Shown in pieces: positions 15,617 to 34,991 of a stretch of DNA of 64,000 nt; position 1 is the stretch's first letter; each line of letters begins with the position of its first letter. Below the pieces are notes generated by a model that saw only the letters and a program-made list of their open reading frames with translations, was not told the origin of the DNA and did not search any database. Position numbers and translations under genes: made by a program. Source of the DNA: Clostridium rhizosphaerae (GTDB lineage: Bacteria > Bacillota > Clostridia > Clostridiales > Clostridiaceae); assembly GCF_016765585.1 (NCBI RefSeq), contig NZ_JAESWC010000014.1, positions 248,001 through 312,000 of the forward strand. The letters run 5' to 3'.

Positions 15617-16597
15617 CTAATTCTTTATTTCAGGATCCCAGCTAAATAGCATTCTTGCATCACTTAATTCCTTACCACTATACCCAATATTTATGGGATT
15701 ACTACAATAATAATTTAAATATCTTATATATACTCCACCCTTTAATATAGAGCTCCATGGAAAAGATTGAATAGAATCTACCTTTAATGGTATTGGAATT
15801 TCATATATATAGTTGTCCCCGTCTTCTCTCGTTGCTCTTTCCTTACTTAATTCAATCGGGTTAATATGTTGTATAAAATAAGGTAGCTGGCCTGTTACCT
15901 CAAAATATATTATAGGATTGTTACTACACTTTTTATTCCTAGTTATTATAAGCTTATCAGGTGTTTCTTTAATACCTGGATTTCCTTTAGACTTTAAATA
16001 CTTAACGTCTATATTATCTATATTATCTATAGCATTTCCAAACTGTCCCACGCTAATATTTTGATAATTGCCGCTGTAATGTGGATAATCCTTTATGTAT
16101 TGAGCCTTATATACAACATCTTTAGTTTCCATACTTTCAAATCCATTTAGATACTTTGCAACAAATTTCCCACCTACATCCGTATTTAATTTACTTTGCT
16201 CATTGCTATTATTTTTCAATGTAATAGGTATCTCATATACATATCTTGTTACTTTATCATCACACTCTTCACGTTTCATTTTTGTATCATCTAATTCTAC
16301 AGGATTTATTGGTTGTACATAATAAGGAAGCCTTCCTGTTAGCTCTAAGTAAACTATAGGATTTGTTTTACACCTTTCAGATTTAATTATTTTAATTTTC
16401 GTAGGATTAACAAAATTATCAACACTTATACTTTTTATAATATCTCCTTTGTCAGCCACTGTTGCTTCCAGTGCCACAGATTTACTCGTATTAAATTGAG
16501 AATAAGATTTTGATATATTCATAAGTAATATATTTATACTAAACATAGCAGCGATACCAGTAAGCAATACTATCTTTGGCTTCTTTTTAGAACTCAT
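15617..16597 (-). CDS. Surface protein with two copies of an unrecognised domain
   Basis: 326 residues, no known family recognised. One N-terminal hydrophobic segment (8-27) is followed by SYSQFNTS, which resembles the SYxWF cleavage region of the TasA-like neighbours. Two copies of one domain follow (about 66-155 and 214-297), sharing TNPIVYLELTGRLPYYVQPI against NNPIIYFEVTGQLPYFIQHI, a YEIPI strand and a late YLN motif. It is the last gene of the SipW-TasA sub-operon controlled by the riboswitch at 19073-19143. Probably exported and anchored; role unknown. Confidence 0.6.
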   Translation of the reverse strand: MSSKKKPKIVLLTGIAAMFSINILLMNISKSYSQFNTSKSVALEATVADKGDIIKSISVDNFVNPTKIKIIKSERCKTNPIVYLELTGRLPYYVQPINPVELDDTKMKREECDDKVTRYVYEIPITLKNNSNEQSKLNTDVGGKFVAKYLNGFESMETKDVVYKAQYIKDYPHYSGNYQNISVGQFGNAIDNIDNIDVKYLKSKGNPGIKETPDKLIITRNKKCSNNPIIYFEVTGQLPYFIQHINPIELSKERATREDGDNYIYEIPIPLKVDSIQSFPWSSILKGGVYIRYLNYYCSNPINIGYSGKELSDARMLFSWDPEIKN

Positions 16598-16646
16598 CTA
16601 TAATGCCTCCTCTCTGATAATTATACGATTTACTACATGAATGCTA

Positions 16647-17336
16647 TTAAAATGTCGCTCCATCAACATTTTGCTTTGCTTTAATAGTAATATCACCAGT
16701 TGCTTCATCGCCCTGATATTCTATTGTTGCTAATTCTTTATCTAATATAAACTTAAGTTTGCATATCAATTTTTCATCTTTTTTGAACACAATGGCTTGC
16801 AATTTACTATTTAAGTTTTTAGTGAATTCATCATAACTTTCGCTTTTTTCATTAGATGAATATATTAATGTATCACCTTTATATATCTGTGAAATAACCT
16901 TATAAGCTTTCACCTTGTTACCATCATTTCCAAACTTTTTAGATTGAATATTAAGATTTCCCATGAGTATCATATCCAAAGTTCCTGCATTAGCAAAAGA
17001 TACAACTGTCCAATCCTTTGAAATATATCCCGGTTCTATATTATCCATTTTAATTGGAGCATTTGCAGAGCTGTCTGAATCAAATCTTAACTCAAAAGAG
17101 CCTACCGTAATAGAGGCCACGTTACTTGACGCGCTCGAAACAAACCAAGAATAAGTGCCTACCCCTGCACCTAAACTTATAAAACCGATTAGAATAGAAC
17201 ATATTAACAGAGTCTTGCTAATCTTTAATCTGCTAATAAAACTTTTATGTTTTTCTGATCTTTTAACAAGCTTATCTTCAGCAGCACTTTCATTTTCAGT
17301 AACTATCAAGCCTGACTTTTCAACACTCCATATCAT
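16647..17336 (-). CDS. TasA/camelysin-like secreted protein with cytoplasmic extension
   Basis: 229 residues. Unlike its paralogues it has about 40 polar residues before the hydrophobic segment (41-62), which ends in GTYSWFVSSAS, the SipW-type signal region. The mature part has the family pattern: an early strand, an IEPGY motif and NAGTLDM, the N-x-G-x-L motif shared by the island's TasA-like proteins. It is probably a SipW substrate exported to the surface. The long N-terminus may delay or regulate export. Start supported by GAGAGGTATTAATATG. Confidence 0.72.
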   Translation of the reverse strand: MIWSVEKSGLIVTENESAAEDKLVKRSEKHKSFISRLKISKTLLICSILIGFISLGAGVGTYSWFVSSASSNVASITVGSFELRFDSDSSANAPIKMDNIEPGYISKDWTVVSFANAGTLDMILMGNLNIQSKKFGNDGNKVKAYKVISQIYKGDTLIYSSNEKSESYDEFTKNLNSKLQAIVFKKDEKLICKLKFILDKELATIEYQGDEATGDITIKAKQNVDGATF

Positions 17337-17607
17337 ATTAATACCTCTCTAACCCTTATATTTTTATAGAATTCAAAAAAACTCAATTATGAACTTAAGT
17401 TCTTTTGAATTTTACCTGCCTGATTCTGTTGAAATAGGCAGGATTAATAATATTTCTTTATCTTTTCAGTCCTTGAAGGCTCCAATGGCTCCAATCCATA
17501 GTATCAATATTCTTAAATATATCTCTTCTTCCTTCCACTCTCACCTGGTATTGGCTTTTTTGTCTGCTGAGCATAAGGGCGGAAAGCAACCCTATTACTT
17601 TTATAAA
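17337..17607 (-). other. Intercistronic region with strong hairpin
   Basis: 271 bases between two TasA-like genes. A stem CCTGCC/GGCAGG lies at 17415-17442, followed on the minus strand by a GAACTTAAGTTC palindrome and a run of T, which could stop or stabilise the upstream mRNA. No convincing reading frame is seen; the plus-strand open frame there has no ribosome-binding site. Confidence 0.4.
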
Positions 17608-18339
17608 TTATTGAAGCTGTGAATTAAAATATGGCATAATGCTGTTTTCTATATAATTTGCCCCATTAACTCCTGGGATTCCGTCAAGATTTAATGCTTT
17701 TATAGCATCAGCATTAACTTGAGTTGTTTTTACTTCATATTTAAGCTTACATGTTTTTCCTTGCTCAGTAGCATTTGGGTTGTATGCAAGTTTAAACTTA
17801 ATAACATAATAATCTCCAGGCTTCATAGCTTCTTCATCCCAAGCAGTTCCAGGAATATCTAAAGGACCATTTCCATTAACCCAGTCTTTCATATTAGAAG
17901 CAAATTGTGAATTAGTTGCAACACCCTTGTCTATAAAATTATCTTTACGATAAGGAGTTGTTGCACCTTCTCTATAAAAATCTACTGAGTAATCTGTAAT
18001 CAACATATCTTTTGCTAAATCATTATCATCAGCTAATGTAAATCTTCCAAAGGTGGCCATATTTAAAGTTCCAGTATTTTTTACAGTTATTGTTGAGTAT
18101 CCGCCATCACCTGTTGTAAGAACCTCTCCTGGCTGTATGTTATTAGTCTTTAATGCTATATCAAAACTTCCACTATTTTTACTTGAATTATTTACATCAA
18201 CAATTATTGTTCCTGCCTTAAATGTGTTTGCTGAGCTAGTTGCAGTGCTGGTAAACCACGCATAGGATCCTATTCCAGCCCCAAAAGCTAAACCTCCTGC
18301 TAATACTAGACTTAATACTGTCTTTTTATTCATTTTCAT
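17608..18339 (-). CDS. TasA/camelysin-like biofilm matrix protein
   Basis: 243 residues. Signal segment 5-23 ends with SYAWFTSTATSSANTF, the typical start of TasA/CalY proteins. The mature domain has NIQPGEVLTTG and VKNTGTLNMATFG, the N-x-G-x-L motif. TasA of Bacillus subtilis is processed by SipW and forms matrix fibres; by analogy this is an exported fibre subunit. It follows the SipW gene at 18455 and its own start has AGAGGAATTATTAAATG. Expression should depend on the c-di-GMP-II riboswitch ahead of that operon. Confidence 0.85.
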   Translation of the reverse strand: MKMNKKTVLSLVLAGGLAFGAGIGSYAWFTSTATSSANTFKAGTIIVDVNNSSKNSGSFDIALKTNNIQPGEVLTTGDGGYSTITVKNTGTLNMATFGRFTLADDNDLAKDMLITDYSVDFYREGATTPYRKDNFIDKGVATNSQFASNMKDWVNGNGPLDIPGTAWDEEAMKPGDYYVIKFKLAYNPNATEQGKTCKLKYEVKTTQVNADAIKALNLDGIPGVNGANYIENSIMPYFNSQLQ

Positions 18340-18454: not shown

Positions 18455-19006
18455 CTATTCTTGTCCAATTTTTCCGGCTTTCCCTTTTTTCTGCTCTGAT
18501 AATATGGTTTTCATCTGCTCGCAAATTAACAATCCCGTTGGTATTAATATTAATAATATAAATCCATAAACGCTTCCGGCAAATCTTGAAATATACCCTC
18601 CATATGGTATTCTAAAACTTACCTTACCAACAACCTGTTCTGGCTCTATAAGCTTGCCATCATCTGTATCATTGGCATCTCCTTTAGCTTTATACACATT
18701 TTTTCCATTTTGTAAAAATATTCCTATAACTCTATGTGTTACAAGCATATTCTCATTAGCTTTATAAGTTATTACATCGCCAACTTTGATATCTTCAGCC
18801 TTTATTGATTTATCAATAATTACATCTCCTGGATTAATTTTTGGTGCCATGCTTCCTGTCAAAATAGTCATAGGCTTATACCCTAGAAAGGATGGTATTT
18901 TATCCTTGCTTCCTTTTGCTCTTATAGACATTATTAAAGATAAAACAACTACGATTACTAAAGCACTAAAAAGTATATTTCCTACCAACTTAATAATTTT
19001 CTTCAT
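18455..19006 (-). CDS. sipW: SipW-type signal peptidase I
   Basis: 183-residue ER/archaeal-type signal peptidase. TM1 at 7-27, catalytic Ser52 in LTGSM, His91 in VTHRVIG replacing the usual Lys, an acidic KGDANDTDD region, and a C-terminal membrane segment (about 148-168). Ser-His peptidases of this type process TasA in Bacillus. It is first in the operon with two TasA-like genes and lies directly behind the riboswitch at 19073-19143. Confidence 0.92.
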   Translation of the reverse strand: MKKIIKLVGNILFSALVIVVVLSLIMSIRAKGSKDKIPSFLGYKPMTILTGSMAPKINPGDVIIDKSIKAEDIKVGDVITYKANENMLVTHRVIGIFLQNGKNVYKAKGDANDTDDGKLIEPEQVVGKVSFRIPYGGYISRFAGSVYGFILLILIPTGLLICEQMKTILSEQKKGKAGKIGQE

Positions 19007-19044: not shown

Positions 19045-19076
19045 AAAAAATCCAATCTACTCTTTTGCAGATTGGG
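19045..19076 (-). terminator. Riboswitch-linked terminator before sipW
   Basis: Minus strand stem CCAATCT/AGATTGG followed by ATTTTTT. Its 5' arm overlaps the 3' end of the c-di-GMP-II aptamer, so ligand binding and termination should exclude each other. Confidence 0.8.
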
Positions 19077-19143
19077 TCGGTTGCACCACTGACTCAGTAA
19101 GTTTTAGGTGCCCACATACAAAACTTACCTCTATGTCTCCCAT
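19073..19143 (-). promoter_or_regulatory. c-di-GMP-II riboswitch before the sipW-tasA operon
   Basis: The minus strand has the class-II core: TGGGCACC, a variable stem-loop, then GGTGCAACCGACC. This matches from memory the core of the Clostridium acetobutylicum class-II aptamer (TTGGGCACTT...AGTGCAACCGACC). The overlapping terminator suggests an ON switch, as is known for several class-II members; direction here is inference. Confidence 0.88.
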
Positions 19144-19429
19144 TAAATTTATTTACACTTTTTACATTATTATTCTACTTTATTATTTTTACATATTTTG
19201 TAAAATATAGTTGTCGATACTGATTTTGTTTCATCATATAAGAATAATAATTCTTTATATTTCCCCTTATATTACAAAATAATCTAATGTAGGTTTTGTT
19301 AATTATTAATTAATTTATTAAGAAAACCAGCAAAATCAATATTCTACTAAAAAATATCAGCATAATTACTGTCGATTTTTTTTAGTATATCTTTTTACCA
19401 TAGAGCATATACTGATTAAGCTATTATTA
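19144..19429 (-). other. AT-rich leader region upstream of riboswitch
   Basis: About 290 bases with no open frame of interest. It should hold the promoter for the riboswitch-sipW transcript, but I cannot pick a convincing -35/-10 pair from the many AT-rich candidates. Confidence 0.3.
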
Positions 19430-19575: not shown

Positions 19576-19585
19576 ATATGCCTTA

Positions 19586-20662
19586 TTAGTTTCCGAAATA
19601 GATAGAGTTTATTTCTTCAGAAATTGTATTACCATCTTTAATAAGTTTTACATCACAAATACTTCTATCTAAGCTGCATTTTAAATCATTATTCTTTATC
19701 ATCTCTTGAACTGCATTATACATAGGAGTTGAATTTTGATAATGTATATCATATTTATCATTATTCAAGTCTGCATGAGGTTGATTACCACACAATCTCC
19801 CGTACAGCTGATCCAGAACCTGCTGCTCAGTTAATTGACCCTTATCACCAGGTTCAGCATAGTATCCCTCTCCACCTACATCGAATAAGATCATATCGGC
19901 TTCATTAGCTGGTAAATCTCCATTGCTCGACTGATTATCATATGTTAACTTTCCATCCTTATTTTTAAAACTTCTAACATACTTACCATTTATCAAATCA
20001 AAGGTCCTAACTCTAGTACTGTTCTGGGGATTTGCCGGTGAAAAAGCTTCCGGTTGTCTCTGAACATTGTACTCTCCTTTGCTGCCTTTAAAGACATCGT
20101 GTTGGGAGATTGAGATAGTTATATTATCAAGTTTTAAATCAGCCAACTTAATTTTAGGGCTTTCCTGTCCATATCTATTGGAATTTTCTATAACCACTAT
20201 GTGATGTATAGTAGTGCCATGTTCTTTTTTATCTTCTGCTTTATCCAAATTACTATCATGCTTATCTATAGCTACACCCTTCCAGCTATAAAAGTTAGCA
20301 CTTACCATAGTACTTTTTCTGCTTATGTTCTTGGAATTATTCGCAATGCTTTCGTAGGTTTCATACTGATCTCTAGGAGCTGGAACATCTAACACCTGCC
20401 CGGTTAAATCCTTAATTATATATTTAGAAGCATCTGTTAACCACAATGGATAGCTTAAGCTTTGCTGGTTTTGATGTCCTGACAAAGTATCCTTAAATAC
20501 AGGCCCAGCTGAAGAATATAATTTAACCCTAAACTTAGGGAAGGCACCTGCGGATACAGTATTATTCTCGTTAGTAGTTTTATTTGTCAAAAAAGCAAAG
20601 GATCCAGCACTCATGAAACAGATTGTAATAAAAGCCAAAATTAAGATATATATTTTTCGCAT
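19586..20662 (-). CDS. Large TasA/camelysin-like secreted protein
   Basis: 358 residues from the ATG at 20662, chosen for its GGGGGAGGTACTG ribosome-binding site over the longer frame from 20689. Signal segment about 4-23 ends in GSFAFLTNKTTNENNTVSAGAF, the TasA-family pattern. The mature part is much larger than in its paralogues, is rich in Asn, Asp and Lys and contains a long insert (about 130-300) with no recognised domain. It is the last gene of its cluster, ahead of two terminators. Membership rests mainly on the N-terminus and context. Confidence 0.65.
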   Translation of the reverse strand: MRKIYILILAFITICFMSAGSFAFLTNKTTNENNTVSAGAFPKFRVKLYSSAGPVFKDTLSGHQNQQSLSYPLWLTDASKYIIKDLTGQVLDVPAPRDQYETYESIANNSKNISRKSTMVSANFYSWKGVAIDKHDSNLDKAEDKKEHGTTIHHIVVIENSNRYGQESPKIKLADLKLDNITISISQHDVFKGSKGEYNVQRQPEAFSPANPQNSTRVRTFDLINGKYVRSFKNKDGKLTYDNQSSNGDLPANEADMILFDVGGEGYYAEPGDKGQLTEQQVLDQLYGRLCGNQPHADLNNDKYDIHYQNSTPMYNAVQEMIKNNDLKCSLDRSICDVKLIKDGNTISEEINSIYFGN

Positions 20663-20676
20663 ACAGTACCTCCCCC

Positions 20677-21249
20677 TTACTTTGCCCAATTTGGATTGTT
20701 AGGTTGTGTCGCATAAATATTTAAATTGAACTTAAGTGTTTTGTTCTGAGCAGTATACGGTGTATCCTTATCTAGCTTTATTGTAATCTTACAGCTAGTT
20801 TTATCACCATTTTTAAGCAGTACAGGCTTACTGTTGTTCATTAAGTAAAAATACTTTTGAGTATTATATAATTCTTTTAGCGGACCTTCATAGCTGTTAC
20901 TTCCAATAACAAGCTTGTAGTTTAAATATGGCAGTAATGCCTCAATTCCATCTCCAGTAAAATTATCAAAGCTTACTTCTACTTTGCTGGTTAAAGTTCC
21001 AGTATTTTTAATAAAGAAATCAAAACTTTGATTGGCTCCCGGGATTAGCCCAGCAGCGTTTACTACAGCACTGCTGTATGGAGTTTTTCCGTCAATGGCT
21101 ATGAAATTTGAGTCAATATTTCCTATAGATAAATTAACGCTGTTTTGCACCTTCTGATTTACTACAAAGTACGAAAAGGTATAAGTAGTACTTGTATATA
21201 TGCATACCAAACCTAGTATAATTATTAATAGCTTTCTTTTACTTAACAT
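20677..21249 (-). CDS. TasA/camelysin-like secreted protein
   Basis: 190 residues. Signal segment 6-24 ends in TYTFSYFVVNQKVQNSVNLSIGNI, the family start. NTGTLTSKVEVSF carries the N-x-G-x-L motif and LIPGANQSF the family P-G turn. It ends with NNPNWAK, close to the NNPGWNN end of the paralogue at 22674. It overlaps the preceding LPKTG gene by 11 bases, so translation is coupled. Confidence 0.78.
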   Translation of the reverse strand: MLSKRKLLIIILGLVCIYTSTTYTFSYFVVNQKVQNSVNLSIGNIDSNFIAIDGKTPYSSAVVNAAGLIPGANQSFDFFIKNTGTLTSKVEVSFDNFTGDGIEALLPYLNYKLVIGSNSYEGPLKELYNTQKYFYLMNNSKPVLLKNGDKTSCKITIKLDKDTPYTAQNKTLKFNLNIYATQPNNPNWAK

Positions 21250-21967
21250 TAATACTACCTCCTTTTCTCAAAGAGGCTTCTTCTTTATGCCCAATAATTA
21301 AGAATCCGATTCCTGATATTGTTAATCCTATTACAACAAGTGTAATAAAATTATAGAATCCACCAGTTTTCGGCAAGGTTGTTATATTATCACTTACTGT
21401 AGTCCCATCGTCTAAGTTATATTGGATGCTAATATTAAACAGGTTCTGCAGGTCTTGAAATATATTGCCTGCCTCCTCTTGAAAATGAAGGCTTAATAGA
21501 AATTCCTTTTCATTATTTCCATCGATTTTAACCGGATTCTTCAGTATAGCCTTATTATTAAAATCCTCAAAGGTGCCCTCAAAAATAACATTGTTTCCAT
21601 CCTTAAGCTGAACCTTTAGATTTCTCAAAAATTCCTTATATACTTCTTCATCGGGATTAATAACTCTATTCAAGATAAAGTTATTTACTGATTGAACATT
21701 TACAGAAACATTCTTGATTTCTATTTCACCAGCGTTTGCATTCTTTATAAGAAATTGCTTGCCTAAAGTTCTCCCCGGATACCAAAACCCATCTTTATCA
21801 CTAAATATTTTGTCATCTCCATCGTTATTTTTTGAAACTATAGTAACCTTATTTTCAGTATTTTGCTGTGCACTTATCTTAAAATAGCTACCTGTAAAGA
21901 ACATAAATATTGTTATAGCTATAAAGGAAATGATAGTTTTTCTATTGATATATCTTTTAATCTTCAT
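21239..21967 (-). CDS. LPKTG-motif surface protein, possible matrix anchor
   Basis: 242 residues: signal peptide (about 10-32), extracellular domain, LPKTG at 198-202, membrane segment (about 206-226) and a 16-residue tail containing Lys and Arg. LPxTG marks sortase substrates, but no sortase gene is in the window and the tail is longer than usual. The extracellular domain shares FWYPGRTLGKQFLIKN with MWPGKTLEKEFYISN of the protein at 34302, so both are paralogues. By position it could anchor fibres to the wall, as TapA assists TasA in Bacillus; that is inference. Confidence 0.7.
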   Translation of the reverse strand: MKIKRYINRKTIISFIAITIFMFFTGSYFKISAQQNTENKVTIVSKNNDGDDKIFSDKDGFWYPGRTLGKQFLIKNANAGEIEIKNVSVNVQSVNNFILNRVINPDEEVYKEFLRNLKVQLKDGNNVIFEGTFEDFNNKAILKNPVKIDGNNEKEFLLSLHFQEEAGNIFQDLQNLFNISIQYNLDDGTTVSDNITTLPKTGGFYNFITLVVIGLTISGIGFLIIGHKEEASLRKGGSINVK

Positions 21968-21988: not shown

Positions 21989-22606
21989 CTATTCACTCCA
22001 AGTATTGTTGTTCCACTGGGTGGATACTATATTTAATAGCTCTAGTGCATTATTGCTTAGTCTTATATTATTTTGATTTAGATCATTATTCGTTATATCT
22101 ATTGGAAGTTCGAGTTTTATTGTAAACGTAACTTTAGCATTATTTTTTAAATTATCAACATACCAAGTATTTTTATCATTTGCATCATTTCTTATAGTAA
22201 CATTTGCATCATTTCCTCTTGGGCTAACAGTTACTTTAAAGGGCGAACCATTTAAGAGCGTACCTTTTGTTATCTTCAATTTTGAACTTAGCGAGCCAGT
22301 ATTAGTAATAATAATGTCTTTTTCAAATGCATCTCCAGGTCTAAGGTTATTTGACTCAAGCCCTCCAGATAAGTTTTTAATATCTATAGAGTCATTTGAT
22401 ATATATTCATTTCCTTTTACAGCTACTGGAGCATACCTCCAACAATTCTGAGGGGTATCATTTGTTTCAATTTTTAAGTTTCCAAGAATTATTGATTGTG
22501 TGTCTGTTTTATCTCCAGTCCTAAAATAAGAATATGTCACTCTATTATTCAAACACACAATTATAATTATAGATAATATGAAAACTAACAGCTTATAACG
22601 CCTCAT
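21989..22606 (-). CDS. TasA/camelysin-like secreted protein
   Basis: 205 residues. Signal segment 5-22 ends in VTYSYFRTGDKTDTQSIILGNL, close to YFTDQKKTDVQSITLGNL of the protein at 22674, so these two are near paralogues. NTGSLSSKLKI carries the N-x-G-x-L motif and it ends with QWNNNTWSE. The gene follows 22674 and precedes the LPKTG gene with a 21-base gap. Confidence 0.8.
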   Translation of the reverse strand: MRRYKLLVFILSIIIIVCLNNRVTYSYFRTGDKTDTQSIILGNLKIETNDTPQNCWRYAPVAVKGNEYISNDSIDIKNLSGGLESNNLRPGDAFEKDIIITNTGSLSSKLKITKGTLLNGSPFKVTVSPRGNDANVTIRNDANDKNTWYVDNLKNNAKVTFTIKLELPIDITNNDLNQNNIRLSNNALELLNIVSTQWNNNTWSE

Positions 22607-22673: not shown

Positions 22674-23345
22674 TTAATTGTTCCAACCTGGATTGTTCCA
22701 CTGAGTTGCATCTACTTGAACGTCGAACTTAATGTTCTTATCCATTCCGCCATTATTTATTGAGCTATCAAGATATACCATAGTAAGAATTGCTATACTT
22801 TCACCTTTTTTTGCATCCAAAATAAATGAGCCAGGATTGGTAGCATCTACAGTTAATAAAACATCATCGCCAAGTGTTCCATCAGAATTCAAAGTATAAG
22901 CTTTAAACAAATGATTTCCGCACGGTAATAGAGCTGCAGTATTATCCATTCCTACAACTTGAGCATCTGCTATACTTAATTTTACCTTAGCATCTAATGA
23001 ACCAGTATTCTTAAGTGTGAAGGTCTTTCTAAGAACATCACCAGGCGCTACATTAGCTATATTGTTTTTGTCAGCCTTAACTATTTCGTCATATCCATTA
23101 TCAATTAATTCCAAAGCAGATTTAAGGTCGATTTTAGCAGCTTCTATATAGTTAGGTACTGCTCTTCCTACAACATCCCAGTTAGCATTTCCACTAACAG
23201 GTTGAAAATCCACATGCAAATTACCTAAAGTAATTGACTGTACATCTGTTTTCTTCTGGTCTGTAAAATAAGCAAAAGTTGCTCCTGTTGAACCTACTAA
23301 TAATGCTGCTGATAATAATAATGCTCCTATTGACTTTTTGTTCAC
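22674..23345 (-). CDS. TasA/camelysin-like biofilm matrix protein
   Basis: 223 residues from a GTG at 23345, chosen because GGGGG lies seven bases upstream; the longer frame from 23393 adds residues unlike a signal peptide. Signal segment ends in GATFAYFTDQKKTD. The mature domain has NVAPGDVLRKTF and KNTGSLDAKVKL, the two family turns. It stands right behind a SipW gene (23457) and is likely that enzyme's substrate and a major fibre subunit. Confidence 0.85.
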   Translation of the reverse strand: MNKKSIGALLLSAALLVGSTGATFAYFTDQKKTDVQSITLGNLHVDFQPVSGNANWDVVGRAVPNYIEAAKIDLKSALELIDNGYDEIVKADKNNIANVAPGDVLRKTFTLKNTGSLDAKVKLSIADAQVVGMDNTAALLPCGNHLFKAYTLNSDGTLGDDVLLTVDATNPGSFILDAKKGESIAILTMVYLDSSINNGGMDKNIKFDVQVDATQWNNPGWNN

Positions 23346-27882: not shown

Positions 27883-28515
27883 TTATCCTACCAATCCATG
27901 CGTGTTGGCATATATAGCAGCTTGTGTTCTATCACTAAACCCAAGCTTATTTAATATTTGGCTCATATGTTTTTTTACAGTATATTCTGTAATATACAGA
28001 CTGCTTGCTATTTCATTATTGCAAAGACCTTTTCCTACAGCTGCCAGCACTTCCTTTTCTCTCTGAGTTAAATTATTTACAGCTGGATCGTTTATTGAAT
28101 TTCTTTTTTCAAGTCTCATAGCACTGGTCATAAGGTTTGCATCATAAAACTTTCTACCTGCTTTAACTATTTTTACTCCATATAAAATTTCCTCTGGAAG
28201 AGCATCTTTTAAAATATAGCCTTCAATTCCTAGCTCTTCTGCTTTTCTAAAATCTCTATAATCTGATGAAGTTGTTAATATTATAAATTTGCATCGTCTC
28301 ATATTGCCTTTAATTTCTTTAACTATATCCAATCCATTTTCGTTACCTAACTTCAGGTCTATTATTGCAATGTCAGGCTCACTTTCTAAAATAAGCTTTA
28401 ATCCATCTTTTACATTACTGCTTTCTCCTGTAATTTCAATATTATTATCCATGGATAATATTGATTTTAACCCCTGCCTAACTAAGCAATGACTATCAAT
28501 AATAATAACCTTCAT
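27883..28515 (-). CDS. LuxR/NarL-type response regulator (riboswitch-controlled)
   Basis: 210 residues: receiver domain (1-120) and C-terminal LuxR HTH (LTQREKEVLAAVGKGLCNNEIA...YTVKKHMSQILNKL). Phosphoacceptor Asp53 and the later Thr and Lys are present, but the acidic pair is Asp7-Ser8 instead of Asp-Asp, so phosphorylation may be weak or not needed. No histidine kinase is nearby. It follows a c-di-GMP-II riboswitch and lies in series with the regulator at 28676. Its likely targets are the island's operons. Confidence 0.9.
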   Translation of the reverse strand: MKVIIIDSHCLVRQGLKSILSMDNNIEITGESSNVKDGLKLILESEPDIAIIDLKLGNENGLDIVKEIKGNMRRCKFIILTTSSDYRDFRKAEELGIEGYILKDALPEEILYGVKIVKAGRKFYDANLMTSAMRLEKRNSINDPAVNNLTQREKEVLAAVGKGLCNNEIASSLYITEYTVKKHMSQILNKLGFSDRTQAAIYANTHGLVG

Positions 28516-28558: not shown

Positions 28559-28594
28559 AAAAAACCGACTGACTGTAAAATCAATCGGTCGGTT
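28559..28594 (-). terminator. Riboswitch-linked terminator before the second regulator
   Basis: Minus strand stem AACCGACCGATTGA/TCAGTCGGTT (one mismatch) followed by TTTTTTA. The 5' arm is the 3' end of the c-di-GMP-II aptamer. Confidence 0.85.
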
Positions 28595-28654
28595 GCACTA
28601 CTAGCTCCATAAATTCCAAGTGCCCAAGTAAAGAATTTATATCTCAGCTTCCGT
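28585..28654 (-). promoter_or_regulatory. c-di-GMP-II riboswitch between two response-regulator genes
   Basis: Minus strand core TTGGGCACTTGG, a variable stem ending GAGCTAGTAGTGCAACCGACCG, with ACGGAAGC forming the 5' side of P1. It is nearly the canonical class-II sequence. It begins about 20 bases after the stop of the upstream regulator, leaving no room for a separate promoter outside that coding region. Confidence 0.93.
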
Positions 28655-28675
28655 AAAAATTATATATTTAACTTA

Positions 28676-29308
28676 TTAACCAACAACTCCATGATTGCTG
28701 GCATATATGGCTGCCTGTGTTCTGTCATACAAATTAAGCTTATTAAGTACTTGTCTAATATGCTTCTTAACTGTGTATTCTGTAATAAACAGCCTATCAG
28801 CTATTTCACTGTTCTTATATCCGTTTCCCAAGGCACCAAGCACCTCAAATTCTCTTTCTGTTAAGTTTTGTATAGGATCATCGGAAGGAAGTCCTCTTTT
28901 ATCCAGTCTCATGGCACTAGCCATTAAGTTTGCATCATAAAATTTTCTTCCTGCATTAACTATCTTTATTGCATATATTATTTCTTCAGGCAGAGCATCC
29001 TTTAAAATATACCCCTCAACGCCCATTTGTTCAGCTGCTCTAAAATCCCTATAGTCCGATGTGGTTGTTAATATTATAATCTTACAATCTATCATATTAT
29101 TTTTTATTTCTTTTACTATCTCTAATCCGCTTTCCTTACCTAACCTTAAATCCACTATTGCAATATCAGGTCTTTTTTCGATGATAAGTCTAAGCCCTTC
29201 TTCTATACTGCTGCCTTCTCCAGCTATTTCAATATCTTTATTCTCTGATAATATCCCCTTTAACCCCTGCCTAACCAAATAATAGCTATCTATAATAACT
29301 ACCTTCAT
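28676..29308 (-). CDS. LuxR/NarL-type response regulator (riboswitch-controlled)
   Basis: 210 residues from the ATG at 29308 (GGGGGAAGTTACGT upstream); the longer frame from 29350 would run into the riboswitch terminator. It is a close paralogue of the regulator at 27883, with receiver Asp53 and LuxR HTH (LTEREFEVLGALGNGYKNSEIA). The acidic pair is again Asp7-Ser8. First gene after the riboswitch at 29379-29448; no kinase partner in the window. Confidence 0.9.
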   Translation of the reverse strand: MKVVIIDSYYLVRQGLKGILSENKDIEIAGEGSSIEEGLRLIIEKRPDIAIVDLRLGKESGLEIVKEIKNNMIDCKIIILTTTSDYRDFRAAEQMGVEGYILKDALPEEIIYAIKIVNAGRKFYDANLMASAMRLDKRGLPSDDPIQNLTEREFEVLGALGNGYKNSEIADRLFITEYTVKKHIRQVLNKLNLYDRTQAAIYASNHGVVG

Positions 29309-29351: not shown

Positions 29352-29388
29352 AAAAAACCAACTGACTTAAAAAATCAATCGGCCGGTT
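29352..29388 (-). terminator. Riboswitch-linked terminator before the first regulator
   Basis: Minus strand stem AACCGGCCGATTGA/TCAGTTGGTT (one mismatch, two G-U) followed by TTTTTTA, overlapping the aptamer 3' end. Confidence 0.85.
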
Positions 29389-29448
29389 GCACTACTAGCT
29401 CCATGAATTCGAAGTGCCCAAATGAGGAATTCATATCTTAGCTTCCGT
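29379..29448 (-). promoter_or_regulatory. c-di-GMP-II riboswitch before the first response regulator
   Basis: Minus strand core TTGGGCACTTCG, variable stem, GAGCTAGTAGTGCAACCGGCC, with ACGGAAGC forming P1. The conserved positions are the same as in the copy at 28585 while the variable stem differs by compensating changes (GAATTCAT here, AAATTTAT there), which supports the fold. Confidence 0.93.
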
Positions 29449-29695
29449 AATTATTATATAAATAATTTACTTTTTTTTCCATAAAAATTTTAGGCTATAT
29501 TATCCAATTTATTGACATCAATAGTACAAAAGTATAATATCTCTTCTGCTTAAGTACCATATATTGTGCATATACTCCCATATAAATCACTTTATTTACA
29601 TATGCAAGCATAGATTTTGTCATAATTTTTTAGTGTCAATTAGTTATATCTTTTCCAAATACCCCATATAATAAAAGTTGGCCAATTATCTATTC
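29449..29695 (-). other. Upstream region of the regulator transcript with CTTAAGTAC motif
   Basis: About 250 AT-rich bases without a gene. It must hold the promoter for the riboswitch transcript. AGTACAAAAGTATA (29523-29536) and CTTAAGTAC (29549-29557) recur upstream of the TasA-like operon at 32324, making them candidate binding sites. No clear -35/-10 pair. Confidence 0.35.
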
Positions 29696-30730
29696 TCACA
29701 CCACCTCAAACAAAAACACCTTCCTGCCTTCCAATACATAAAAGCAGCTTATCTCACTTTCCTTTCCGGCATAAACATAAAGCACAGGCTTCTCAGCTTC
29801 ATCTGCAAGTCTTATTAAATCCTCCATTTCAACCACTCTTATTACTGTTTCAGTGCCATCAACAGGGTTGTCTTTGAGTGCTACCAATCTATCTTTGTAG
29901 TCTCTTAATATTTTTTCTGACTTTTCAAAAGCTGCCTTTTTACGCTTTTCAGGTTTCGTTAAGAATAATATAAATAAAGTTCCCAAAATACTTCCTACCA
30001 AAGCTATGGAAAATATAATTATGCTTTGAGTATATTTTGGTGATACAACTTTTATTGTTTTTTCTAAAGCTCCTTTTTTATCCTGAGAAAGCTTCCCCCC
30101 TATCTCAAAGTATTTGTTTCCTAATGGGATTTCCATTCTTGGGGACATCTGCTCATTTATAACTCCCAAATCTGCTTTAGTGTTTATATTTATTGTCCAT
30201 ATTACAGTAAGCTTATTATTTAAAGTTAAATTTACACTTTTATTTATCTGTTGAATCAAATCATTATAAGTTTTTAAACTTAATGGCATTTCCTTTTGGA
30301 GTTCTCCATTAGAGCTGTCAAAGCTGAAGTCTGTTTTATTTTGAAGTATAAATTTCTTAGTAAATACATTCTTGCTGTCCTTTTCATTGCCTATGGAACT
30401 TTCAAGAAGAGCTGTTATTTCATATTGCCCTGAAACCTGAATATTTTTGTCTGATGAAATATTATATTTTAAAATTGTGTTTATCTTATCTACATAATCA
30501 GTTAAATAAATGTTTCCTTCCCCTAAGACCTTTTGTTCAATTAATGGATTTGGAATGAGGCTTACATTATAATTTACTACTGCCTTGTTGTTATAGGAAA
30601 TTACAGCCTCCTTTTTATCCATATATTTATCCTTTGATATAGTTTTTATAAGTAAAGCTGCTGATACTAAAAATATAATTACAAATACGAAAAGAAGCTG
30701 CTTTCTTAATTTGTTATTTATTGTTTTCAT
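29696..30730 (-). CDS. DUF5305 membrane protein of signal-peptidase clusters
   Basis: 344 residues from the ATG at 30730 (GGTGTGGTGGAT upstream). One N-terminal membrane segment (about 10-30), a large extracellular beta-rich region, a second membrane segment (about 234-258) and a cytoplasmic C-terminus of about 85 residues. This matches DUF5305, which often lies beside SipW-like peptidases and TasA-like proteins. Its role, possibly in assembly or signalling across the membrane, is unknown. Last gene of the sub-cluster starting at 32324. Confidence 0.75.
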   Translation of the reverse strand: MKTINNKLRKQLLFVFVIIFLVSAALLIKTISKDKYMDKKEAVISYNNKAVVNYNVSLIPNPLIEQKVLGEGNIYLTDYVDKINTILKYNISSDKNIQVSGQYEITALLESSIGNEKDSKNVFTKKFILQNKTDFSFDSSNGELQKEMPLSLKTYNDLIQQINKSVNLTLNNKLTVIWTININTKADLGVINEQMSPRMEIPLGNKYFEIGGKLSQDKKGALEKTIKVVSPKYTQSIIIFSIALVGSILGTLFILFLTKPEKRKKAAFEKSEKILRDYKDRLVALKDNPVDGTETVIRVVEMEDLIRLADEAEKPVLYVYAGKESEISCFYVLEGRKVFLFEVV

Positions 30731-30774
30731 TTTTATCCACCACACCTTAATATTACTCATTCTATAGAAAAGAA

Positions 30775-30824: not shown

Positions 30825-31628
30825 TTATTGATTAAATTGTTTTACATTTATGGTTACGGTAAATGTATCTGTTAATTTCTCTAAGGAGTTATCACTTACT
30901 GTGTAAGGAAGACCTATTATTACACAGTTATCATTTACAGGATCATAGCCGCTGATTCCTTGAGACTTAAGCACTTTGTCAACAGCACCCTTATATTCTT
31001 CCGGAACATCTAGGGTAATTATATCTCCGGGCTGCATAGTTATCCCACCAAGCATACTGTTTAATCCGCTTTGAAGATCTCTAAGCCTTGGCATTGGCAT
31101 GGTCATAAGAGCCTCTTCACTATAGTCTGACAAATCCTTAATTCTGCTTAACACATCACTTGCAACCAGCTTATATTCATTTCTGCCGTCTTTTCTATAC
31201 TGTCTATAACCGCTTATTGCTATTGCATTATCAGCAAACTTACTGTTTATGTTTGATATAGTTACGCTGCTTATTTTTACTGGTATGGTTGATTTATTTT
31301 CAAAGCCTAAAGCATAAAGTGCACCGGAACCTGGATACATTCCGCTTAATGTAAATGTTGCGTTATTTGAGTCATTCTTTATTAAAGTTGAAGTAGAATA
31401 ATTTTTATTTCCTGATTCGAGAACTCGTGAGCTCCATGGAATAGTCTCACCCCTGTCAAATAATAACCCATCTAACTCTATTTCCTTAGGTCCCACAAAC
31501 TCAACCTTTAATTCTCCGGTAGAAGCCGAAGCAGTTATATTTAGGTTATCAGTCCAAGCTGCATAGCCTGCTCCTGTTGTAAGAAGCGCTGCAAGTACAG
31601 CGGATAATATTATTTTATTTTTCTTCAT
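30825..31628 (-). CDS. TasA/camelysin-like secreted protein
   Basis: 267 residues. Signal segment 5-22 ends in GAGYAAWTDNLNITASASTGEL, almost the same as in the adjacent protein at 31662 (AGYAAWTDNLNITNVIQTGEL). YPGSGALYALGFENKSTIPVKISSV gives the family turn, with N-x-S-x-I in place of N-x-G-x-L. The central region (about 140-200) is an insert with charged helices. Probably a SipW substrate. Confidence 0.75.
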   Translation of the reverse strand: MKKNKIILSAVLAALLTTGAGYAAWTDNLNITASASTGELKVEFVGPKEIELDGLLFDRGETIPWSSRVLESGNKNYSTSTLIKNDSNNATFTLSGMYPGSGALYALGFENKSTIPVKISSVTISNINSKFADNAIAISGYRQYRKDGRNEYKLVASDVLSRIKDLSDYSEEALMTMPMPRLRDLQSGLNSMLGGITMQPGDIITLDVPEEYKGAVDKVLKSQGISGYDPVNDNCVIIGLPYTVSDNSLEKLTDTFTVTINVKQFNQ

Positions 31629-31661: not shown

Positions 31662-32324
31662 TTAATTATGTTGAACCAAGTTGAAGTCTACTTTGAATTT
31701 AATCCAGCTTTTTTCGAGTTCATTTGGCTTTTGAGCTGTTCCTGTTGCACTGTCTAAGCTTACTTTAAGATTTTCAAAGGATACATATTCCGTTGGAGTT
31801 GAACCTTGAGCCGGTTCTAATTGAACGCCTGAAAGCTGTGTATTTAGAGCCGCTTGAAGTCCTGCCAAAGATGTATCTACTGACTTAACTATCTTTGTTC
31901 TATCAGCTTTATAAACTGTTACATTTCCTGAAACCTTTATTTTTGAATAGTCTGTTTGTGATATTGCTGTATATCCATTAGGTGCAGTCTCGTTCAAAGG
32001 ATTATAAGTAACTGCCACGCTGCCTATTTTAGCCGGTATAGTTCCATCATTTTTGAAAGAAGCATTTAAAGTTGCTCCTGCTCCAGGATATAAGTTTTGG
32101 ATTGTGAAGTTGATGCTGTTAGTTCTTCCTGTTGGAGCTATTGCTGATGCATTTGCTGTTACATAAGCATCACCTGATGCACTTGCTGAAGTAAATGTAG
32201 CTGCAAGTTCTCCTGTTTGAATTACATTTGTTATATTAAGATTGTCTGTCCATGCTGCATAACCTGCTCCCATTGTCAGTAAGCCTGCTACTAGGGCAGC
32301 TGTTAAAACCTTTGCTTTTTTCAT
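31662..32324 (-). CDS. TasA/camelysin-like secreted protein
   Basis: 220 residues. Signal segment 5-22 ends in GAGYAAWTDNLNI; the mature domain has LYPGAGATLNASFKNDGTIPAKIGSV, the family P-G turn and N-x-G-x-I motif, and many small residues. It starts an operon with a -10 box at 32381-32386 and a weak -35. Start supported by AAAGGGGATATTTTAATG. The nearest SipW is the membrane-fused enzyme at 32475. Confidence 0.8.
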   Translation of the reverse strand: MKKAKVLTAALVAGLLTMGAGYAAWTDNLNITNVIQTGELAATFTSASASGDAYVTANASAIAPTGRTNSINFTIQNLYPGAGATLNASFKNDGTIPAKIGSVAVTYNPLNETAPNGYTAISQTDYSKIKVSGNVTVYKADRTKIVKSVDTSLAGLQAALNTQLSGVQLEPAQGSTPTEYVSFENLKVSLDSATGTAQKPNELEKSWIKFKVDFNLVQHN

Positions 32325-32447: not shown

Positions 32448-32475
32448 TAAAAAACACAGAGCCTAAACTCTGTGC
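32447..32475 (-). terminator. Terminator after the membrane-fused SipW gene
   Basis: Minus strand GCACAGAG/CTCTGTG stem followed by TTTTTTATTG, abutting the stop codon. Confidence 0.88.
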
Positions 32476-33650
32476 TAAAATTCCACTTTTTCTTTCAAAA
32501 CCTTATTTCTGCTGTCTTTTAATATAAGCGTGGGCCAGCCTATCTTAGGCACTATATTAATGACCTTTCCTTTTATCATATCTATGCTTACAAGTTCACT
32601 GTCAGCTATAGAGTTGTTATCACCCTTCGTCTCATACTTAATTTCATTTTTTTCATCTACAAGCTTTGTTATTCTGTGAAAAATATATATATTATCTTTT
32701 TTATAAGCCACTATGTCCCCAGTTTTTACATCTGCTTCTTTAAGCCTTTTTACAAGCACTACATCTCCAGGATTTATTAAAGGCTTCATGCTTCCTGTAG
32801 CAATAACTGCAGGATATACAGGAAACACCCCCATAGAAAACCATATTATGATTACAGAAATTAGACTTGTAATTATAAGTCCAGCTGGTTTTTCTTTATT
32901 TATATCTCTCTTCTTGATTCCTTTTGATTCCTTAAGATAAAAGTATTGTAAAAGCATCATGCTGAAGATTGGACTTAAGCCTCCCATAATTGCAGTAGCT
33001 ATCCATTGTAAATTAGGAAGTATAGGAGAAATATACAAAATTCCTTGAACTATTACTAAATATATTATTGATAGCCTTTCCGTGTCTAAATAAACTAAAT
33101 AAGCTGCCATTATGCTCATTGAAAGCTGAGGAAGCACAGTTTCACCGAAAAACTTCATAATTTCAAAGTTTCCCTTAAGGCTTAAGGCCTTATTCAAAGG
33201 AAGATTTATAATTGTAAGCAGCACAACTGCAAAGCTAATTCTAATCCAAGGCTTATCTTTTGAACCATTATTTATTAAATAAGCTCTAATTTTTTCTTTT
33301 CCAACTAAGGTTGATAATAGCAAAACAGCATTTTTAAATATTCCTAACGGACTTAAATCATAGGGACTGCTTCCAAAACCTTGTATAAAGCCCCCCATTA
33401 CTTGTATTACAATATAAAATACTGCAAGGTATACTACCCATTCCGTTAAAAACTTTTTATATTTTGATTTCGCAGCTCCTTTAAGCTTCGGAAGTTTTGA
33501 AACAAATAATATTACTAAAATCCATAGTATTGGTTTTATGCCATATATGAAATAGCTTTTTTTGTTGAAGGTAAAAACAGAAAGATTATCAACTGTATAA
33601 ATAATTCCAAGCATAAGTACCAGTAGAAAATTGATTAATCTTTTGTTCAT
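32475..33650 (-). CDS. SipW-type signal peptidase fused to a polytopic membrane domain
   Basis: 391 residues. Residues 1-240 hold about seven hydrophobic segments with no recognised family; residues 255-385 are an ER/archaeal-type signal peptidase with Ser287 in ATGSMKP, His325 in IFHRITK and the KGDNNSIAD motif. Ordinary SipW enzymes are about 180-200 residues. The extra domain may hold substrates or sense the membrane. The start follows the regulator gene's stop directly (TAAATG), so the two are coupled. Confidence 0.88.
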   Translation of the reverse strand: MNKRLINFLLVLMLGIIYTVDNLSVFTFNKKSYFIYGIKPILWILVILFVSKLPKLKGAAKSKYKKFLTEWVVYLAVFYIVIQVMGGFIQGFGSSPYDLSPLGIFKNAVLLLSTLVGKEKIRAYLINNGSKDKPWIRISFAVVLLTIINLPLNKALSLKGNFEIMKFFGETVLPQLSMSIMAAYLVYLDTERLSIIYLVIVQGILYISPILPNLQWIATAIMGGLSPIFSMMLLQYFYLKESKGIKKRDINKEKPAGLIITSLISVIIIWFSMGVFPVYPAVIATGSMKPLINPGDVVLVKRLKEADVKTGDIVAYKKDNIYIFHRITKLVDEKNEIKYETKGDNNSIADSELVSIDMIKGKVINIVPKIGWPTLILKDSRNKVLKEKVEF

Positions 33651-34277
33651 TTATCCTTCAATGCCTCCAAGCTCCATACTGTTCATGTAATAAGCTACCT
33701 GAGAGCGCTTGCTTAGACTTAACTTACCCAATATGCTGCTTACGTGCTTTTTTACTGTACTCTCTGATAAGAACAGTTTTTCTGCTATAGCTATATTACT
33801 TAGCCCCCTGCTGACCTCCATAAGTATATCTTTTTCTCTTGAGGTTAAACTGTTTACAGAAAAACTCATATTATTTCCAAGCTTATATTGAACTATTGAA
33901 GGGTGATAGTATTTTATCTCTCTATTTACTGTTTTAACAGCATAAATTAAATCTTCTATACTAGCACTTTTTAGAATATATCCATCTACACCTATATGTT
34001 CTCCTCTAATAAAATCAGAATTAGAAATAACAGAACTTATTACTATAAACTTAACTTTGCTTTGTTTTTGCTTTATCTCAGAAATTATATCCAGTCCATC
34101 TTCTTCTTTAAGCTTTAAATCTATAATAGCAAGATCTATATTTTTAGCTTCTAATAAACTTAAGGCCTCTTTTTTATTAGAAGCCTCATAGGCTTCATAT
34201 ATTTTAAATTCCTTAAGTAAAATAGCTTTTACTCCAGATCTTACAATTGGGTGGTCATCTACAACTAAAACCTTCAT
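33651..34277 (-). CDS. LuxR/NarL-type response regulator
   Basis: 208 residues from the ATG at 34277 (AAAGGTG upstream). Receiver with the complete acidic pair Asp7-Asp8, Asp53, Ser and Lys, and a LuxR HTH (LTSREKDILMEVSRGLSNIAIA...STVKKHVSSIL). It keeps the phosphorylation pocket that the two riboswitch-controlled regulators have altered. It sits in an operon between an anchored surface protein and the fused SipW. No kinase in the window. Confidence 0.9.
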   Translation of the reverse strand: MKVLVVDDHPIVRSGVKAILLKEFKIYEAYEASNKKEALSLLEAKNIDLAIIDLKLKEEDGLDIISEIKQKQSKVKFIVISSVISNSDFIRGEHIGVDGYILKSASIEDLIYAVKTVNREIKYYHPSIVQYKLGNNMSFSVNSLTSREKDILMEVSRGLSNIAIAEKLFLSESTVKKHVSSILGKLSLSKRSQVAYYMNSMELGGIEG

Positions 34278-34301
34278 CCCCATCACCTTTCACATCTTAC
34301 T

Positions 34302-34991
34302 TTATTCCTTCTTACCCTTTTTTAAATACAGCACAAAACCTAATACAAATAATAAAACTCCAAATATAGTGAGCACATATGTGTCAAAAAAAGAGCCTGT
34401 TTGAACCAAAGTTTCACCCTTTACTCCCTTATCTATTGGAGGAAGATAGACAGACTCAATTTCAGCAAAGTTAACCTGAATATTAAACTTATATTGAAGC
34501 TTCATAGTAGAGTTATCGGAATCCTTATCAAATAAAAACTGAACCTTAAATTTTTTCATTTCATTTGCATTTATTGCTATAGAATTTTCTCCAACTAAGT
34601 TTTTATTTAAAAGTGCGTCTTCATTTCCTTTCCAAATTTCTTTTCCTTCATAACTAAAGGAAAGCTTTGTATCCTTAATAAAGTTCGTATACTCTGTTGT
34701 GCTTTTATCTAATTCCTTTCCGTTCTTATCATAAAGCTTTCCATCAACAATAATATTTTTAACATAACATTGAAAGTCATTATCATTGGAAATGTAAAAT
34801 TCTTTCTCCAAGGTTTTACCAGGCCACATTATTTCTTCTCCAGTAAATAAAATCTCATTTAGATTCCCTTTATCAGACAGATGATAGATTATCTTATTAT
34901 CATCTGCTTTTACTAGAATCTTTGGCACTGTGATACCTACCATAAAAATAAATATACATATAAAACAGCAAAACTTTTTTAAATTTTTCAC
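34302..34991 (-). CDS. Membrane-anchored surface protein, paralogue of the LPKTG protein
   Basis: 229 residues from a GTG at 34991 behind GAGGTG. Signal peptide (about 5-28), extracellular domain with MWPGKTLEKEFYISND, then VQTGS, a membrane segment and a KKGKKE tail. This is the layout of a sortase substrate, but the motif is degenerate (QTG in place of LPxTG), so it may simply stay in the membrane. It shares the PG[KR]TL motif and length with the protein at 21239. Confidence 0.68.
   Translation of the reverse strand: MKNLKKFCCFICIFIFMVGITVPKILVKADDNKIIYHLSDKGNLNEILFTGEEIMWPGKTLEKEFYISNDNDFQCYVKNIIVDGKLYDKNGKELDKSTTEYTNFIKDTKLSFSYEGKEIWKGNEDALLNKNLVGENSIAINANEMKKFKVQFLFDKDSDNSTMKLQYKFNIQVNFAEIESVYLPPIDKGVKGETLVQTGSFFDTYVLTIFGVLLFVLGFVLYLKKGKKE

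Follow-up and report, generated by a model that had tools for sequence, protein, structure and literature searches.

Within the 64,000-nt window of the Clostridium rhizosphaerae genome analysed here (contig positions 248001-312000; genome of 4.85 Mb, 96.85% complete), the genes at window positions 15617-34991 likely form a biofilm-matrix island, encoding protein fibres and tied to cyclic di-GMP (c-di-GMP) at the RNA level, as judged from sequence. The 19.4-kb island is bounded exactly by its outer open reading frames (ORFs), carries every gene on the minus strand, and holds four Ser-His SipW-type signal peptidases, eight TasA/camelysin-type N-termini, two LPXTG-type relatives, three NarL/LuxR response regulators and three complete c-di-GMP-II riboswitches. 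A first-pass annotation had described a TasA/SipW matrix island in a member of the Clostridiaceae, larger than the tapA-sipW-tasA operon of Bacillus subtilis and with c-di-GMP riboswitches inside, and this description stands, together with its four peptidases, three LuxR-type regulators and three riboswitches. It had counted seven TasA/camelysin N-termini; their presence is confirmed, and the number by eye is eight. The set is neither one invention nor special to this genome: the block is composed of three modules (A, B and C), relatives carry two of these modules singly, and loci joining a class II switch to SipW and TasA recur in Clostridia. The best reading is a c-di-GMP-ON programme that would serve at least two classes of TasA-superfamily fibre, each with its own peptidase class.

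In the order of transcription (Table 1; names such as TasL1, Cam367 and P326 are labels coined in this analysis), module A comprises LPX1, RR1, SipW391, TasL1, TasL2 and a DUF5305 protein. Riboswitch-RR2 and riboswitch-RR3 follow, then CC1-CC3 with an ordinary signal peptidase I. Module B consists of SipWb, SipWa, TasA1, TasL3, LPX2, TasL4 and Cam367, and module C of riboswitch-SipWc, TasA2, TasL5 and P326. Two transcription units thus appear to have a riboswitch at their head, one beginning with SipWc-TasA2 and the other encoding the regulators, and the middle operon, with its two peptidases, lacks a riboswitch. The earlier proposal of an RNA-level readout by c-di-GMP would apply directly to matrix genes in the SipWc-TasA2 unit.

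Peptidases and predicted fibre subunits

All four SipW-type proteins exceed the TIGR02228 cut-off of 51.85 bits, and a genome search with this profile found four places, all inside the island. At the active-site blocks they carry Ser-Met and (Thr/Phe)-His-Arg (alignments A2 and A3), with S-M...F-H-R and KGDNN in SipW391 (A3). Ordinary signal peptidases carry Lys in place of the SipW His, and the possibility that the four are ordinary type I signal peptidases was rejected on the TIGR02228 scores and the Ser-His blocks. None of them reaches the Bacillus SipW equivalog NF046067 (128.3, 104, 107.3 and 58.4 bits; cut-off 190 bits). The substrate N-termini read GYAxW beside the long SipW and [YF][AS][YW]F or similar beside the short ones. 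Because this motif separates the two classes even inside loci that carry both peptidase types (L042 and L149), it supports, without proving, two classes of cognate peptidase-substrate pairs. The idea of a separate peptidase for each fibre type is supported at the level of two classes.

The eight TasA-type N-termini recognized by eye belong to TasL1, TasL2, TasA1, TasL3, TasL4, Cam367, TasA2 and TasL5; P326 (15617-16597) is a doubtful ninth. Known family profiles cover all four peptidases and part of the subunits: PF12389 (cut-off 22.5 bits) is passed by two of the eight (TasA1 and TasA2), with TasL1, TasL2, TasL4, TasL5 and Cam367 unlisted, and TIGR04088 by 2/8 when tested protein by protein, with TasL1 added in the genome search. 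In such hit lists, a family that is unlisted is not thereby excluded. The TIGR04088 genome search missed TasA2, which passes as a protein, showing that a short model can leave genes undetected at the genome level. The TasA equivalog NF046066 (cut-off 450 bits) is reached by neither TasA1 (23.0 bits) nor TasL3 (15.5 bits). Instead of placing most of the proteins outside the TasA fold, profile iteration on the mature parts, with signal peptides removed, unites seven of the eight TasA-type proteins with both LPXTG proteins, and links LPX1 to LPX2, TasL4 and TasA1. Cam367 as a starting point stayed apart from the other island proteins, linking eight family members, and was reached once from TasL4.

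Structural comparisons agree with the proposed TasA fold for module A. The profile of its subunits (alignment A4) matches the archaeal bundling-pilus protein AbpX in the Protein Data Bank (PDB) at 3.5e-18 and 8.7e-13, and TasA is matched too. The structure model of TasL1 has a jelly-roll fold and retrieves the TasA fibre as its first match. Its N-terminal segment, modelled with pLDDT below 50 at residues 21-25 and 27-30, could act as a donor strand.

Homologues support the assignment of individual members. LPX1 and TasL5 have homologues of 36% and 39% identity in G003, one of the genus-mates in our collection (G001-G003), and a 58% identical homologue of TasA2 lies behind a riboswitch-SipW pair in Sporosalibacterium. 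Five relatives end module B in a 350-382-aa protein with a motif like that of Cam367. P326 weakly matches (2.1e-6) a 411-aa neighbour of the L187 cassette, and its position in G003 is taken by a 177-aa protein that looks similar by eye. One sortase was found in the genome; three relatives from a single genus have switch-SipW-TasA-LPX behind a gene the size of a sortase, which in the one tested (L062) is a sortase.

Riboswitches and response regulators

The three predicted aptamers score 74.5-78.5 bits against RF01786 (gathering score 53.5 bits) and are complete, each covering model positions 1-84. Sixteen columns of the conserved core are invariant across 52 aptamer sequences that include RS1-RS3. 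No further class II switch turned up in the genome, where 150 of 377 first-look candidates were scored, and none was found in 14 control genomes. In all three, the 5' arm of a terminator hairpin (-11.5 to -14.6 kcal/mol) overlaps the 3' strand of P1 by 7-11 nt. Since terminator and P1 compete, high c-di-GMP should switch the genes ON, and the predicted geometry is that of an ON switch. Such an overlapping terminator, defined by a hairpin of at most -9 kcal/mol, occurs in 30 of 50 SipW-linked switches (L091 and L092, copies of named loci, left out) compared with 0.15 expected from shuffled sequences.

RS2 and RS3, leaders up to the start codons included, are identical in 126 of 150 columns, so that switch and regulator were probably duplicated as one (RS2-RR2 and RS3-RR3). 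As RS3 starts just behind RR2, expression of RR3 probably requires both switches to be open unless a separate promoter exists. The ORF of RR2 is open from 29350, and its ATG at 29308 is preceded by GAGGGGG. Five class I c-di-GMP switches were found in the genome, none in the island and one elsewhere in the window (40038-40126, plus strand). The latter precedes a 174-aa factor resembling, by eye, a sigma-70 region-4 type (40329-40853, plus strand), downstream of which lies an NlpC/P60-like protein, also by eye.

RR2 and RR3 were identified with Pfam, and RR1 by homology (49.5% identity to the regulator of the G003 cassette) and by its place in a midpoint-rooted tree of 68 regulators, from which L090, L091, L092 and L139, copies of named loci, were left out. 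All three cluster with the 34 kinase-linked response regulators (branch support 100/99), and RR2 and RR3 are sisters (100/99). The acidic pocket is DD in all 34 kinase-linked regulators and in RR1, and DS in RR2 and RR3. Two regulators away from the kinase (L161 2290-2904 and L197 5437-6051), both near long-SipW cassettes, share a supported seven-row group with RR2/RR3; both acids are absent from them, and the conserved Thr and Lys are replaced. A further regulator not beside a kinase (L146) has DN. L143, where the kinase is slightly further off, keeps an unaltered pocket; L197 18-590 is truncated at a contig end. The altered pockets away from the kinase indicate that kinase-less members of this clade tend to decay at this site, RR1 excepted. 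No kinase ORF was found in the block, and no full-length homologue of the cassette kinase was found in the genome; the best match to the G003 kinase lies in a 400-aa frame and reaches 31% over 358-561, the C-terminal portion of that kinase. The two cassette kinases tested consist of HisKA_3 and HATPase_c. We infer that RR2 and RR3 may be governed by their synthesis and not by phosphorylation, which is the weakest step of the proposed scheme.

Recurrence of the modules and genomic surroundings

The family survey covered 100 loci of at most 20 kb each, with the SipW matches of G181, G063 and G084 outside it. SipW was found by our own profile in 67 loci, and 17 of these 67 have a class II switch; the 67 include loci chosen by riboswitch and five others picked with knowledge of a nearby switch, all of which are also in the SipW match list. 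Among the matches listed (147 family riboswitch hits, own-genome rows excluded), a class II switch lies within 10 kb of 15/79 SipW-type rows and of 0/67 ordinary signal peptidase rows (Fisher p 5.4e-5). A chance gathering of riboswitches was rejected on this contrast and on the switch count of the genome search (150 of 377 candidates scored).

The module A-type cassette reads (c-di-GMP-II riboswitch)-histidine kinase-response regulator-TasA/AbpX-like-long SipW-DUF5305-LPXTG, the switch being present in some copies, and has variants in several clostridial families. The window holds its regulator, TasL, long SipW, DUF5305 and LPX in one block, without a kinase directly behind a riboswitch. Among the best 80 of 428 long-SipW loci, to which the named loci belong, 19 carry 21 switches, all on the SipW strand, and the first gene behind the switch is a kinase in 14 cases, an LPXTG protein in four, SipW in two and another gene in one. 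The 34 kinase-bearing loci have the switch within 250 nt before the kinase in 14 cases and elsewhere in two, and three meet a contig end. Substitution of class I for class II switches was rejected, as an Rfam search of seven switchless long-SipW loci, six of them with a kinase, showed no c-di-GMP switch of class I that reached the gathering score. Among the carriers are Sporosalibacterium faouarense, Natronincola peptidivorans, Geosporobacter subterraneus, Sedimentibacter saalensis and C. polynesiense. In S. faouarense (L149) and a Bacillota metagenome-assembled genome (MAG; L187), riboswitch-kinase-regulator-long SipW adjoins riboswitch-short SipW-TasA.

L087-L092 are examples of module A occurring with neither B nor C. 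The row TasA-TasA-LPX-TasA-TasA of module B occurs without A or C in L096, L100, L105, L115 and L134; it is preceded by two in-line short SipWs in L096 and also in L100, where a switch separates the two, by one SipW in line and one on the opposite strand in L105 and L115, and by one in L134. G003 has A and C together, and its flanking genes look the same as those of the window by eye. DUF5305 is present in 73 of the best 80 long-SipW loci, and the TasL-SipW-DUF5305 core extends to Bacilli, Tenericutes MAGs and two archaeal MAGs, in none of which a switch was found. In L219 and L222 (Pyrodictiaceae and Desulfurococcales MAGs), TasL-TasL-SipW-DUF5305 lie in line, which makes DUF5305 look like a regular companion of AbpX-type fibres. 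Up to three class II switches occur in tandem, with four in one TasA/SipW locus (L085 6563-9528) and three in another (L086 10245-13031); tandem switches could sharpen the response. A class II switch also lies among genes that look by eye like type IV pilus genes in G003 (L043 12001-12084) and G001 (L044 8368-8451). These genes may be a second c-di-GMP output there, and no such switch was found in the genome of the window.

Table 1. Features of the island in order of transcription, by window position; scores are those of the family named.
Feature	Position	Strand	Description	Support
LPX1	34302..34991	-	LPXTG-type (VQTGS) anchored secreted protein, TasA-superfamily core, module A	Gram_pos_anchor 22.5 bits (cut-off 20)
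RR1	33651..34286	-	NarL/LuxR response regulator, intact DD pocket, no kinase alongside, module A	
SipW391	32475..33650	-	Long SipW-type Ser-His peptidase, extra hydrophobic N-terminal part (by eye), module A	TIGR02228 82.4 bits
Hairpin	32453..32476	-	Terminator-like, immediately behind SipW391; may be a partial attenuator ahead of TasL1	
TasL1	31662..32324	-	TasA/AbpX-type predicted fibre subunit, GYAAWTD N-terminus, module A	
TasL2	30825..31628	-	TasA/AbpX-type predicted fibre subunit, module A	Member of alignment A4; mature-domain link to TasL1 8.7e-8
DUF5305 protein	29696..30760	-	Usual partner of long SipW	PF17231 109.3 bits
RS2	29372..29454	-	Predicted c-di-GMP-II aptamer before RR2	RF01786 74.5 bits
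RS2 terminator	29356..29384	-	5' arm takes P1 3' strand (predicted ON switch)	
RR2	28676..29308	-	Riboswitch-headed orphan response regulator, pocket DS not DD	Response_reg + GerE (Pfam)
RS3	28578..28661	-	Predicted c-di-GMP-II aptamer before RR3, just behind RR2	RF01786 78.5 bits
RS3 terminator	28563..28590	-	Competes with P1	
RR3	27883..28515	-	Riboswitch-headed orphan response regulator, pocket DS; 70% identical to RR2	Response_reg + GerE (Pfam)
CC1	26955..27740	-	Secreted, coiled-coil-like by eye	No family over cut-off
CC2	26152..26928	-	CC1 paralogue	Mature-part link to CC1 2.4e-8
CC3	25566..26090	-	Small secreted protein, N-terminus similar (by eye)	
Signal peptidase I	25005..25547	-	Ordinary signal peptidase	TIGR02227 120.7 bits
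SipWb	24292..24840	-	Short SipW-type Ser-His peptidase, module B	TIGR02228 118.4 bits
SipWa	23457..24077	-	Short SipW-type Ser-His peptidase, module B	TIGR02228 115.7 bits
TasA1	22674..23393	-	TasA/camelysin-type, module B	PF12389 41.2 bits; TIGR04088 29.5 bits
TasL3	21989..22606	-	TasA-type, module B	Mature-domain link to TasA1 5.3e-4 (round 1); PF12389 16.7, below cut-off
LPX2	21239..21967	-	LPKTG-anchored TasA-superfamily protein, module B	Links to LPX1 (3.5e-11) and TasL4 (round 2)
TasL4	20677..21249	-	TasA-type, module B	Link to TasA1 5.9e-8
Cam367	19586..20689	-	SipW-type signal peptide (FAFLTNK), end of module B; putative TasA-type	
RS1	19066..19149	-	Predicted c-di-GMP-II aptamer before SipWc, module C	RF01786 75.9 bits
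RS1 terminator	19052..19075	-	Competes with P1 (predicted ON switch)	
SipWc	18455..19006	-	Short SipW-type Ser-His peptidase, directly behind RS1, module C	TIGR02228 122.3 bits
TasA2	17608..18339	-	TasA/camelysin-type, module C	PF12389 27.7 bits; TIGR04088 24.5 bits
TasL5	16647..17336	-	TasA-type, module C	TIGR04088 15.2 bits, below cut-off
P326	15617..16597	-	Secreted, internal repeat (by eye), last gene of module C	No Pfam/NCBIfam family

CC1-CC3 share the stretch 25005-27740 (minus strand) with the ordinary signal peptidase; among loci L042-L141, CC1 and CC2 matched each other only, and CC3 matched itself only. Before LPX1 lie two copies (35075-35195 and 35350-35445, minus strand) of a dispersed palindromic, MITE-like repeat. 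Its 18-base seed occurs exactly 30 times across the genome in unaltered form, the reversed control not at all, and one copy of the repeat folds with a z of -8.5. The palindromes at 35075-35445 were rejected as island-specific regulators, being a dispersed repeat with 30 seed copies genome-wide. GGDEF domains were found at 20 places in the genome. The top-scoring one belongs to a protein about 19 kb from the island (53877-56033, plus strand) with TPR-like repeats in front, by eye.

Interpretation and comparison with known systems

In the mechanism that we favour, bound c-di-GMP would hold P1, block the terminator and let transcription continue. Raised c-di-GMP would thereby open RS1, giving SipWc and TasA-type substrates, and RS2 and RS3, giving the two regulators. 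SipW-type peptidases would mature the TasA-type preproteins, the long SipW serving the GYAxW class (module A, AbpX-like) and the short SipWs the [YF][AS][YW]F class (modules B and C), and the matured subunits would polymerise through N-terminal donor strands, as TasA does. The LPXTG TasA-like proteins may tie the fibres to the wall via the one sortase found. RR2 and RR3 would be duplicates of the regulator of the riboswitch-kinase-regulator-fibre cassette, now free of the kinase, with an amount set by c-di-GMP replacing phosphorylation. They may activate modules A and B, as BsaR does for the C. perfringens sipW operon, which would make a two-layer feed-forward switch. The recurring sets of switch and fibre genes suggest that c-di-GMP turns on a protein matrix directly via RNA. 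For Clostridia at large, we propose only tentatively a two-layer, RNA-first c-di-GMP programme, in which ON-riboswitches would drive fibre operons and the regulators of further ones, regulators would have been freed from their kinase in the lineage of the window, and two peptidase-specific fibre classes, one of the archaeal AbpX type, would be co-produced in one matrix.

Several observations weigh against this interpretation. Neither module A nor module B has its own riboswitch, which leaves RR2/RR3 as the link between these modules and c-di-GMP, and no binding motif shared by the regions before the transcription units emerged (120 shared words compared with 46-123 in shuffles). A promoter scan found 124 compared with 102.7 expected, and a shared promoter or inverted-repeat motif was rejected, nothing exceeding the shuffles. 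No class II switch is present in 50 of the 67 family SipW loci or in 15 of the 34 kinase-bearing loci. TasA2 found itself alone as an iteration start, its profile gave no significant TasA match in the PDB, and its model is poor (pLDDT 58.9) and adds little, since many unrelated jelly-roll proteins score just under TasA in fold searches. The TasA link of the LPX family profile in the PDB (0.088) is not significant, and Cam367 and P326 are TasA-type proteins only putatively. In C. perfringens, BsaA polymerises without need of a sortase (PMC7395162), which weakens the wall-anchoring step as a general rule.

The strongest competitor concerns the regulators. RR2 and RR3 retain the phospho-accepting Asp, Thr and Lys, which also counts against the synthesis-based scheme, and partial kinase homologues such as the 400-aa frame exist in the genome; we consider it possible, if short of an even chance, that both are ordinary phosphorylated regulators served by a kinase elsewhere, with the riboswitch merely adding gain. 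The second acidic residue of their pocket is nevertheless lost, as in none of the 34 kinase-linked relatives, three more clade members off the kinase have an altered pocket, and the full-length cassette kinase was not found. A more conventional account treats the TasA-like genes as camelysin-type proteases or spore-surface proteins and the switches as another example of class II c-di-GMP control of surface proteins and pili, which is already known (PMC3649979, PMC8470499). The name of PF12389, Camelysin metallo-endopeptidase, would fit it, as would the other class II switches of the genus among type-IV-pilus-like genes. We consider it unlikely, given that the module A profiles match AbpX and TasA fibre structures, that the TasA fibre is the top match of the TasL1 model, and that long and short SipWs are paired with matching N-terminal classes, with several subunits per peptidase. 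Least probable, in our view very improbable, is that the switches are OFF switches, with c-di-GMP repressing, or act on translation, the island then belonging to a motile-phase or dispersal programme. This would accord with the 20 of 50 SipW-linked switches that lack an overlapping terminator by the rule used, a count that also tells against our interpretation, and with one figure legend in PMC3649979 that calls CD3513 and CD2831 'negatively regulated'. The text of that paper, however, describes all four class II switches as acting positively, maximum pilA1 transcription requires the class II switch according to the review PMC8470499, and the terminator overlaps P1 in all three switches of the window. 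The likely reading remains a matrix island under ON control by c-di-GMP.

In the literature examined, the clostridial route from c-di-GMP to a protein matrix has so far involved type IV pili and individual adhesins, and the present locus and its relatives would give a direct path from riboswitch to SipW/TasA fibre operon. The island may offer a second TasA-type matrix model beside B. subtilis, with wiring shared across clostridial families and a fibre related to archaeal bundling pili. In RR2/RR3, a response regulator may have shifted from phosphorylation to riboswitch control, and the kinase-bearing sister cassettes would be natural controls. Both c-di-GMP-II ON-switches and SipW/TasA fibres have been described before, each by itself. 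Their pairing was not found among the titles and abstract openings listed from the searched literature, which covered few subscription papers and no bioRxiv, and no paper on DUF5305 was found there. What appears new at the level of sequence is the placement of class II switches on SipW/TasA/AbpX-type modules and, in this lineage, regulator duplication with kinase loss.

Like tapA-sipW-tasA of B. subtilis, the island sets a SipW-type Ser-His peptidase beside TasA-type substrates. The TasL1 model shares the jelly-roll fold of TasA, whose fibre assembles by donor-strand exchange (PMC9674648), and has an N-terminal segment that could serve as such a strand. Unlike that operon, it has four peptidases, eight or more substrates and class II riboswitches, and its proteins fall below the TasA and SipW equivalog cut-offs. 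For C. acetobutylicum, the review PMC8209462 states that no TasA-like biofilm protein has been found so far. In C. difficile, a class II aptamer likewise precedes surface-structure genes (pilA1/CD3513 and CD2831; PMC3649979, PMC8470499), c-di-GMP is reported to increase expression through each of the four class II switches (PMC3649979), and full transcription of pilA1 depends on its switch (PMC8470499); the targets there are a type IV pilin and a collagen-binding protein, unlike the SipW/TasA genes and response regulators of the island. The sipW-bsaABCRSD locus of C. perfringens also combines SipW, a fibre-forming secreted protein and a response regulator, and its sipW promoter is under two-component control, with BsaR/BsaS needed for the operon and BsaR binding its promoter (PMC7395162). 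That locus has one peptidase and retains the kinase that is absent here, and in the excerpts of PMC7395162 the word 'riboswitch' occurs in the reference list only. The archaeal bundling pili AbpA/AbpX (PDB 7ueg, 9sj2 and 9rhp) resemble module A through the AbpX match of its subunits. In contrast to them, the present system is bacterial, and its cassettes add a kinase, a response regulator, a riboswitch and an LPXTG anchor.

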